Shown: positions 31,582-35,035 of the stretch, piece after piece
Numbering within the stretch: position 1 is the first letter of the stretch
Layout: each line of letters opens with the position of its first letter
From: Candidatus Mediterraneibacter excrementavium
Lineage (GTDB): Bacteria > Bacillota > Clostridia > Lachnospirales > Lachnospiraceae
DNA length: 64,000 bases
Assembly (NCBI GenBank): GCA_019120275.1
Contig: DWVL01000008.1
Span: forward strand, 20,490-84,489
Direction of reading: 5' to 3'
The notes under the pieces: model-generated
Databases searched by the model: none
What the model saw: only the letters and a program-made list of their open reading frames with translations
What the model was told of the DNA's origin: nothing
Made by a program: the position numbers and the translations under genes

Positions 31582-31648
31582 AAAATGGAAATCGGGACGT
31601 AGTAAAATTCAATTTTACTACGTCCCGATTTCCATTTTTTATCCATTT
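31572..31648. repeat. Perfect 38-bp inverted repeat with 1-nt centre (possible bidirectional terminator)
   Basis: Arms 31572-31609 and 31611-31648 fully complementary; centre C31610. Confidence 0.95.
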
Positions 31649-31649
31649 G

Positions 31650-33191
31650 TCAGTCCTGTCTGTAATAACTGAAGAAGTCTTTCATCTTTTCCATGGCTTC
31701 TCTCAGAACCTCGATCCTTGGCAGATAAACGATGCGGAAGTGATCCGGCTGCGCCCAGTTGAATCCGCCGCCGTGGATGAGGAGAATCTTCTTTTCCCGG
31801 AGCAGATCAAGTGCGAAGTGCTCGTCGTTGGTGATGTTGAACTTTTTCGCGTCCATCTTTGGGAAGATATAGAATCCGGCTTTCGGCTTCACGGCGCTGA
31901 TGCCGGGGATATCGGTGAGCGCCTTGTAAATGTAGTCCCGCTGTTCGCGCACCCGTCCGCCCGGCGCGATATAGCCGCGCACGCTCTGGTGTCCGCCAAG
32001 TGCGGTCTGTACAATGGACTGGGCCGGTACGTTGGAGCAGAGCCGCATATTGGAGAGCATCTTCAGTCCTTCGATGTAGTCTTTTGCCACGCGTTTGTTG
32101 CCGCTCAGGATCATCCATCCAATCCGGAAGCCGGCGATCATGTGCGATTTGGACAGACCGCTGAAAGTGATGCAGAAAAGGTCCGGAGCCATAGAAGCAA
32201 TGGAAATATGTTCCGCATCGTCCATGACCAGGCGGTCGTAGATCTCGTCAGAGAAGATGATCAGCTGGTGCTCCCGCGCCACATCCACGATCTGCTGAAG
32301 GACTTCCTTCGGGTAGAGCGCACCGGTCGGGTTGTTGGGATTGATGATCACGATGGCCTTGGTGCGGTCGGTGATCTTTTTCTTAATGTCGTCAATGTCC
32401 GGATACCATTCGGATTCCTCGTCGCAGATGTAGTGGACCACATTGCCGCCGGCCAGTGTCGCGCATGCGGTCCAGAGCGGATAGTCGGGCGAGGGAATCA
32501 GGATCTCGTCGCCGTCGTCCAGCAGCGCGGACATACAGAGGTTGATCAGCTCGCTGACGCCGTTTCCTGTGTAAATGTCGTCTACTGAGACATTGGGGAT
32601 ATTTTTCAGCTGGGCATACTGCATGATCGCTTTTCTTGCTGAGAAAAGGCCCTGGGCGTTGGAGTAGCCCTCGCATTCGGCCAGCTGTTTGCGCATGTCG
32701 TAGATGACTTCATCCGGCGTGCGGAAGCCGAACGGAGCAGGGTTTCCGATGTTCAGTTTCAGGATCTGCGTGCCGTCTTCTTCCATTCTTGCCGCTTCGT
32801 CCACGACCGGTCCTCTTACATCGTATAAAACGTTGTCGAGTTTTGAAGATTTCTTAAAAGTCCGCATGGTCTGTACCCCCGTTTTCTTATTTATTCCTGT
32901 GTTGTTTAAATCTGTACTGTGTGCAGTCCGGACTGTTCCGGAATCGGATCGGTCCGGTGTCTGTGCTGCAGCCTGTCCGTCTCTCAGCCATGATTCTTCG
33001 ACGTGAAGTGTCTCAGCCAGAAAATGCATGATGTCCGGACGCGGGACCGTTTTCCCACTGACATACTGGCTGATATGGCTTTTTCCGAGCTTCACGCCGC
33101 ATCCGGCGGCAGTCCGGACCAGATCGATCTGTTTCATGCCCTTCCCTGCCATGGCTGAGGCAAGGCGCTGAGCGAATGTTTCGTTAGACAT
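31650..33191 (-). CDS. XRE-type HTH domain fused to class I (AlaT-like) PLP-dependent aminotransferase
   Basis: N-term KGMKQIDLVRTAAGCGVKLGKSHISQYVSGKTVPRPDIMHFLAETLHV; C-term KLNIGNPAPFGF, NPNNPTGALYPKEVL, FSGLSKSHMIAGFRIGWM; start refined to ATG 33191 behind AGGAG. Confidence 0.88.
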   Translation of the reverse strand: MSNETFAQRLASAMAGKGMKQIDLVRTAAGCGVKLGKSHISQYVSGKTVPRPDIMHFLAETLHVEESWLRDGQAAAQTPDRSDSGTVRTAHSTDLNNTGINKKTGVQTMRTFKKSSKLDNVLYDVRGPVVDEAARMEEDGTQILKLNIGNPAPFGFRTPDEVIYDMRKQLAECEGYSNAQGLFSARKAIMQYAQLKNIPNVSVDDIYTGNGVSELINLCMSALLDDGDEILIPSPDYPLWTACATLAGGNVVHYICDEESEWYPDIDDIKKKITDRTKAIVIINPNNPTGALYPKEVLQQIVDVAREHQLIIFSDEIYDRLVMDDAEHISIASMAPDLFCITFSGLSKSHMIAGFRIGWMILSGNKRVAKDYIEGLKMLSNMRLCSNVPAQSIVQTALGGHQSVRGYIAPGGRVREQRDYIYKALTDIPGISAVKPKAGFYIFPKMDAKKFNITNDEHFALDLLREKKILLIHGGGFNWAQPDHFRIVYLPRIEVLREAMEKMKDFFSYYRQD

Positions 33192-33210: not shown

Positions 33211-33313
33211 AAGTTCAAATCAGAAAGTTCAAAAACACAAGCAAAAGTTCAAAATTTACGAAAAGTTCAATTTGCGCTTGCTTAACTATATCACGGGAAA
33301 GTAAAAAGTTCAA
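33211..33313 (-). repeat. Five same-orientation copies of TTGAACTT (AAGTTCAA on +), putative operator array
   Basis: Copies at 33211-33218, 33225-33232, 33245-33252, 33263-33270, 33306-33313. Confidence 0.95.
33285..33313 (-). promoter_or_regulatory. Sigma-A-type promoter of the XRE-aminotransferase gene
   Basis: Minus strand: TTGAAC (33313-33308), 17-nt spacer, TATAGT (33290-33285); -35 coincides with the distal TTGAACTT copy. Confidence 0.75.
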
Positions 33314-33450
33314 TATTTAATTACTCATTTCAGCAAAAACGGAACTGATTTTCCTGAAATATATGTTATACTACTCATCAGACGTGAAGAGCCTCCCTGA
33401 GGGGGACTGGAATTTTACAGATATTTACAGTAAAGGATGGGATTATTATA

Positions 33451-35035
33451 TGAGAAGAAAGTGGCATCGTATCCTGGCGGCAGGGACTGCCTTCAGCTTC
33501 GTGCTGGCGTCGATGACGATGACGGCGTCTGCAGAAGGAGAGTCCGGGACAGGATCAGAACAGAATGCGAAAGAAATTACCATTTACCATACAAATGATA
33601 CCCACGGGTATCTGGAAGGCGATGATGAGTCGGTCATCGGTCTTCCGCTCGTCGCAGGCCTGAAAAAAGCGGATGAAAACGCGATCCTTGTGGATGCGGG
33701 CGATGCGACGCAGGGCCTTCCGCTTGCATCGCTCACAAAAGGGAATGATGTGATCGAACTGATGAATCTGGCGGATTATGATCTGATGGTGCCGGGCAAT
33801 CATGAGTTCGACTTTGGCACGGCAGCATTTCTTGAGAATGTAAATCTGGCAGAGTTCCCGGTGATCTCGGCCAATATATACCGGGACGGCAGCCTTCTCC
33901 TGGACGGAACGCAGGAAGGTAATGAGGGATGCCATACGGTGATTGAACGCAACGGTGTAAAGATCGGTTTCTTTGGACTTACGACAGTGCATACCGCTTC
34001 GGCGACAAATCCGGAAGGCCTGGACGGAGTGGAGTTTACAGATGAGATCGAAGCGGCGAAAGTGGAAATTGGTCATCTGGAAGAGGCCGGTGCGGACGTG
34101 GTGATCGCTGTAACACATATGGGTGACGAGACCGGCGGGGCGCCGTGTACATCGGCGGATCTGGCTGAGGCCATGGCCGGAGAATATGCGGGCAGACTGG
34201 ATGCGATCATTGACGGGCACAGCCATACGGTTGAAAATGACAAAGTAAATGATGTTCTCATAGTGCAGACCGGGATCGGAATGACAGTGAGACGAAGATC
34301 ATTCTTGCAGGGAATAATTATATCCTGAGCGGCGGCAACGATTATAACATGCTGGGAAATCTTCCCAAATATGCGGAGGCAGGCGGCGAGCTGGAGACGA
34401 TCCGCTCTTATATAGAAAAGAATCTTGAGAACGGAACACTGACCGGCTATGCCGGAACCGAGGGCAGGATTTCCTACACCGGCAGCGTCTATCAGTCGGA
34501 AGACTATACAGTATCTGTGCAGATCGTGGATGAAGCGGGAAATCCCTGTGCGGACAGAGAAATATCCTACCGTGTGGACGGCGGCGAAGGGATCATGGGG
34601 AAGACTGATTCCGATGGGTACCTGAAGATCACGCTCTCAGACGGCGGGCACGGGATCCGCGTGTCGGATGCACAGGCGGAAGTATACGCGGACAATTATA
34701 CGGGGATCGGACTTGTGACAGATGCGCTTCGTCCGGCTCTTAAGCTGACCGCTCCGGCGCCGGGAAGCGAGATCCCGGTGGAAGAACCGGGGATACCGGA
34801 CCCGGAACCGACCCCAGAGCCGGAACCAATCCCGGAGCCGGAACCTGAGCCGGAGCCAGTTTCGCCGGCCGGGGATGAAGACGATGCCGGAGATGGAACG
34901 GCAGACGGCCGGGGAGCGGAGACGGATATCCCGGGAACCGGAGACAGCGCAATGCCGCAGCTTTATGCGTTTACGGCGCTGCTTGCAGCGACAGTGTTTG
35001 CGGCTGGAATTAAAAAAAGGATCAATAACCATTAA
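33451..35035 (+). pseudogene. Cell-wall-anchored 5'-nucleotidase/metallophosphatase, internally deleted and frameshifted
   Basis: Frame 1 (to 34328): signal peptide, HTNDTHGYLEGD, VDAGDATQG, PGNHEFDFG, DGHSHT; frame 2 resumes ETKIILAGNNYILSGGNDYNML near 34289, ends in Pro-Glu linker and IPGTGD sortase-like signal plus TM and KKR. Confidence 0.75.

Follow-up and report, generated by a model that had tools for sequence, protein, structure and literature searches.

The window analyzed here, 64,000 nucleotides of a contig from Candidatus Mediterraneibacter excrementavium, carries on its minus strand a single gene in which a helix-turn-helix (HTH) domain is joined to an AlaA-type alanine aminotransferase. 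The gene, its parts, and the terminator that follows it are these:

31650..33191, minus strand: whole fusion gene, HTH-AlaA, 513 aa plus stop (open reading frame, Pfam, kept in 100 loci)
32973..33191, minus strand: HTH head, residues 1-73, TP901-1 CI type, recognition region KLGKSHISQYVSGKTVPR (profile matches, predicted fold)
32868..32975, minus strand: linker, residues 73-108, hypervariable and predicted to be disordered (pairwise identity, pLDDT)
32865..32881, minus strand: probable internal translation start, a GGGGG Shine-Dalgarno sequence plus ATG (M109) (kept in 98/100, Shine-Dalgarno energy)
31650..32867, minus strand: AlaA-type alanine aminotransferase, residues 109-513, PLP lysine K348 (identity to 4cvq, active-site residues)
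31587..31633, no strand assigned: terminator hairpin with a 20-bp stem, bidirectional, common to the fusion gene and the convergent S41 peptidase gene (scan)

The original prediction described one uninterrupted minus-strand reading frame running from an HTH through a linker into a complete AlaT-like aminotransferase with NPTG and PLP-lysine motifs, and this description holds. From an ATG at 33191 preceded by the Shine-Dalgarno sequence CAGGAG, the frame continues to 31650 without an internal stop; an in-frame TTG lies upstream at 33218, a base that also opens one of the operator copies described below. Both the NPTG and the SKSHMIAGFRIG motif are present, the PLP lysine being K348. Pfam places Aminotran_1_2 at residues 142-501 of the full protein (E 7.5e-57) and HTH_3 at residues 29-69. 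HTH_3 scores 19.8 bits when the whole protein is searched, under the 23-bit cut-off, and 24.8 bits for the isolated 73-aa head; it is also matched by each of the 41 aligned orthologue heads. The HTH stretch first proposed was placed correctly, but it was slightly too short: the domain spans approximately residues 3-72.

Is the fusion real? The same architecture is found in 100 loci, mostly from Lachnospiraceae with a few from Bifidobacterium, and the nearest named relatives by the fusion gene are Mediterraneibacter (94% identity). Since the architecture is conserved in these loci, isolates included, we rule out a local fusion, a frameshift, an error of metagenome assembly, or chance. Counts of orthologues are not counts of independent events, because orthologues share ancestry. 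A search for orthologues split into two reading frames gave none. The unfused relatives simply do not have the HTH, and the flanks of the 10 unfused alaA loci examined gave no HTH-like match or remnant, so that separate HTH and AlaA reading frames can be set aside. The gene ends at a strong terminator and is probably monocistronic; neighboring genes are kept only in close relatives, which rules out a conserved operon partner. On the plus strand, a 5'-nucleotidase-like gene at 33363-35035 appears as two reading frames (33363-34328 and 34349-35035), perhaps through a frameshift or an assembly error.

The closest solved protein to the enzyme part is E. coli AlaA (YfbQ; PDB 4cvq, E 5.9e-171), with 59% identity over 402 gap-free positions. 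Using the published list of AlaA active-site residues (PMC4094517), we find that the active-site and plug residues map onto the fusion at an offset of +108 and that, with the exception of Ile17, which is Val, those checked are identical. The catalytic residues are invariant across 41 fused proteins, and the next best aminotransferase in the same genome, which is 86% complete, is only 25% identical. The conserved residues and the distance of the next match indicate that the fusion is apparently the sole AlaA-type gene of its genome and that its enzyme part is probably catalytically active. E. coli AlaA thus shares the enzyme part, but it has no HTH head, no linker, and no operator array.

The predicted structure of the head is a five-helix, HTH_3-type domain of the XRE/Cro-CI class (mean pLDDT 93), and its profile matches are HTH_3, HTH_31, HTH_19 and TP901-1 CI. 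The N-terminal domain of the TP901-1 phage CI repressor (3zhm, 5a7l) is its closest solved relative by sequence (E 2.5e-15) and also supplies the top four matches by predicted fold, while profile, sequence and fold searches gave no match to GntR. The heads are well conserved among orthologues and the enzyme parts still better (mean pairwise identities of 64% and 85%). Three stand-alone reading frames (G105:C175:41918-42142, G119:C9:12134-12352 and G133:C9:2003-2227) encode heads near the fusion HTH (E 1e-17 to 6e-20); they may be repressors of phage type, and the fused head may derive from such a gene. The remaining head-profile matches in the family are weaker, stand-alone reading frames of 122-309 aa that are probably phage-type or other XRE regulators.

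What would such a head recognize? The region upstream of the fusion gene contains five copies of an 8-bp motif and a promoter:

33306..33313, minus strand: operator copy 1, TTGAACTT, overlapping the -35 box (motif search, promoter scan)
33285..33313, minus strand: promoter, TTGAAC, 17-bp spacer, extended -10 TG-TATAGT (scan; spacing conserved in orthologues)
33263..33270, minus strand: operator copy 2, TTGAACTT (motif search)
33245..33252, minus strand: operator copy 3, TTGAACTT (motif search)
33225..33232, minus strand: operator copy 4, TTGAACTT (motif search)
33211..33218, minus strand: operator copy 5, TTGAACTT, adjoining the ribosome-binding site (motif search)

The motif occurs within 350 bp upstream in 99 of 100 fused genes, at a density 78 times that of the remaining sequence of these loci; of 30 unfused alaA genes, none has it upstream. 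One fused gene (L030) has no exact site, and two others (L019, L020) have single, distant ones. The consensus over 89 non-redundant upstream regions is AWATTGAACTTTT. Spacings between copies peak near 20, 30-31, 41-43 and 62 bp, a period of 10.3 bp, and none of 2000 random placements was equally phased. The copies are chiefly direct repeats on the same strand (294 forward, 19 reverse); among core pairs within 40 bp, 175 are direct and 26 inverted, which rules out inverted, CI-like operators as the main layout. In L114 every exact copy is inverted, as fits a DNA site and not an RNA element. In three Bifidobacterium loci (L105, L106, L111), copies of the TTGAAC core, read by eye, lie at about 21/32/21 bp.

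The TP901-1 CI operator OL, AGTTCATGAAACGTGAACT, is built from the half-site AGTTCA/TGAACT (PMC4941734, PMC7250872), and the core TGAACT of the upstream consensus is this half-site. The upstream motif was found before the HTH relative of the head was identified, and in our view no other single observation argues as strongly for binding of the predicted sites by the head as this match between core and half-site. The resemblance to TP901-1 CI thus covers the sequence and fold of the N-terminal domain and the AGTTCA/TGAACT core, recognition itself being predicted. It does not extend further: CI has C-terminal oligomerization domains and inverted half-sites, whereas the fusion has an aminotransferase body and mostly direct repeats.

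The position of the sites suggests what binding would do. A TATAAT hexamer, with at most one mismatch, follows exactly 17 bp after 58 sites, compared with 0 to 12 sites for each of the other spacers from 2 to 38 bp, so one copy is usually the -35 box; the remaining copies span the leader as far as the ribosome-binding site. Judged by position, this is the layout of a repressor. Because sites matching the head are arrayed over its own promoter, the enzyme very probably regulates the gene that encodes it. Autoregulation is therefore strongly supported by the operator arrays, in line with the early suggestion of an enzyme that represses its own gene, and its sign, as judged from where the sites lie, is very likely negative. 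Activation would be compatible with those genes in which sites lie upstream of the -35 copy, for example those whose -35 box is formed by the third copy. However, the -35 hexamer is itself a site and the other copies are usually downstream of it, and we consider activation very unlikely. The predicted target is narrow. In the whole of its own genome the paired motif occurs only at the fusion gene, ruling out a wider regulon there, and one further full-consensus site lies inside a reading frame; a control with the reversed pattern itself gave 3 matches. In the family genomes, motif pairs cluster upstream of fused genes, with scattered single pairs elsewhere.

The history of the gene can be read in part from a tree of the enzyme part, a quick one made without bootstrap. 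The fused genes group together in one branch (SH-aLRT 96), and three unfused genes, L027, L028 and L029, are nested within it; parsimony requires 4 changes, 2 of them forced by the starred branches, and the three genes are most simply explained as later losses of the head. None has an exact operator site upstream, and head and sites appear to have been lost jointly. All other AlaA matches in a phylum-wide sample are unfused. The Bifidobacterium copy in the tree lies inside the Lachnospiraceae clade, its exact place being weakly supported, and this position suggests horizontal transfer; the occurrence of the same fusion and repeats in GC-rich Bifidobacterium suggests that the gene moved together with its control region.

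Could the arrays belong to a different regulator, the fused head having some other role? TTGAAC is akin to a -35 box, and part of the signal might be read in that way, but a -35 role accounts for one copy and not for phased arrays of three to five. Moreover, the sites track the head (99/100 versus 0/30, with none at the three apparent head losses), and their core is the TP901-1 CI half-site, CI being the nearest solved relative of the head. We find a different regulator scarcely credible. Taking head, enzyme and operators together, we propose that the gene product is a housekeeping alanine:2-oxoglutarate aminotransferase, AlaA, which has acquired a TP901-1 CI-type head joined to it by a flexible linker. 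To this explanation as a whole, which includes repression of its own gene by the full-length protein and the probable plain enzyme described below, we assign a probability of about 0.8.

The linker between head and enzyme is the most variable part of the protein, with a mean pairwise identity of 9.6% among orthologues and lengths of 9-66 aa, and it is predicted to be disordered (pLDDT <50 for residues 76-126). We take only the head and the disorder of the linker from the predicted models, because the full-length AlphaFold prediction, made from a shallow alignment, is poor for the enzyme part (mean pLDDT 65). Within the same region, M109 falls exactly opposite the first residue of E. coli AlaA and is hence the native AlaA start, and an ATG is kept at this position in 98 of 100 fused genes. 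The mean Shine-Dalgarno duplex energy is -9.4 kcal/mol at the internal start and -9.0 at true starts, compared with -2.6 at 1398 other internal ATGs, and it surpasses synonymous recoding of the same peptides (-6.7) in 97 of 98 genes (p 9e-18). An ATG and a strong Shine-Dalgarno sequence kept inside a hypervariable linker make a head-free AlaA likely, and one gene thus probably gives both a repressor-enzyme and the plain enzyme from the same mRNA; a consensus scan showed no separate internal promoter for the short form. In Blautia sp. MSJ-9 (L088) and B. wexlerae (L094) the internal start codon is GTT, which is no start, and a single exact TTGAACTT is left within 260 bp; in this naturally occurring variant the second product has disappeared along with most of the array.

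The internal start might instead be a relic left over from before the fusion, or might simply result from coding for a Gly-rich linker, with no separate AlaA made. The alignment of M109 with the first residue of unfused AlaA marks it as ancestral, two of the fused genes persist without it, and part of the Shine-Dalgarno signal comes from the peptides themselves, as the synonymous expectation indicates. Against this, the linker has diverged so far that 80 distinct hexapeptides precede the internal Met, while the Shine-Dalgarno sequence remains of true-start strength and above synonymous expectation in nearly every gene. We therefore regard the relic as unlikely and retain the reading with two products.

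How does the fusion compare with known systems? The MocR regulators (GabR, PdxR, TauR; PMC5320631) also carry an N-terminal HTH on a class I aminotransferase and act at direct-repeat operators, which their aminotransferase dimers favor because of head-to-tail geometry (PMC5320631). The comparison with MocR made in the original prediction therefore stands for architecture and for operators: the fusion has a C-terminal class I aminotransferase with its PLP lysine, K348, and a phased direct-repeat array. It fails for kinship. MocR proteins have GntR winged-helix heads and sensory bodies, whereas the fusion has a CI-type head and an intact AlaA body. The fusion would work like a MocR and like self-repressing trigger enzymes, yet it is not a MocR, since its head is not of the GntR type. 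As in trigger enzymes, an intact enzyme and a DNA-binding domain are found in one chain, with predicted sites at its own gene. PutA and BirA are metabolic enzymes with a DNA-binding domain that control their own genes; compared with these, the fusion has a different enzyme and a different head, and it has in addition a predicted second, head-free product. The CDD entry PRK13355, automatically named "bifunctional HTH-domain containing protein/aminotransferase", is presumably the same architecture, and no fused model is among the best 25 NCBIfam matches. Our literature search, which covered chiefly openly available papers, found none on this architecture, nor on the operators, the promoter overlap or the internal start of such fusions.

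We propose that the full-length protein would bind the phased direct repeats over its own -35 box and leader and would thereby repress its own gene, while a second ribosome-binding site, placed where native AlaA begins, would yield plain enzyme from the same mRNA. Should the protein dimerize like AlaA, the relative amounts of the two products would decide whether both subunits, one or neither carries a head. Finally, occupancy of the active site by PLP/PMP, alanine, glutamate or a keto acid might move the head and so tune repression, and the outcome would be a one-gene homeostat for alanine transaminase. The original prediction had the protein sensing PLP or an amino/keto acid, which is plausible. 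In E. coli AlaA, binding of a substrate mimic orders the N-terminal plug over the active site (PMC4094517), and the head is attached just before the corresponding plug residues (Y123, V125, R126, G127, P128), which together offer a possible path from occupancy to head placement. The long, variable linker may, on the other hand, leave the head uncoupled from the active site, which counts against sensing; we hold the sensing step, and the homeostat that follows from it, at slightly short of even odds.

A simpler possibility is a pure dosage autoregulator, in which repression follows the amount of protein and the aminotransferase part serves dimerization and metabolism without sensing. A disordered linker of 9-66 aa speaks against tight allostery, and a self-only array with a single target suits plain negative feedback; the attachment of the head directly to the substrate-ordered plug, and the MocR precedents that sense through the aminotransferase fold, speak the other way. 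Dosage control is a serious possibility that we would still place somewhat below an even chance. A bolder reading, also somewhat below an even chance, is that a captured phage-CI-type head and AlaA form a two-product homeostat in which mixed dimers and the plug link repression to occupancy of the active site. Such a homeostat would resemble MocR but would have arisen independently, with a different head and with the enzyme still working.

An aminotransferase thus appears to have been joined to a DNA-binding head independently of MocR, in an enzyme that looks fully functional and whose predicted target is its own gene. The fusion provides a compact model of how a metabolic enzyme may regulate itself in bacteria that are common in the gut (Blautia, Mediterraneibacter, Fusicatenibacter, Bifidobacterium), one that predicts the operators, the promoter and the second translation start to the base, and it suggests that the head of a phage-type repressor can be reused for housekeeping control.
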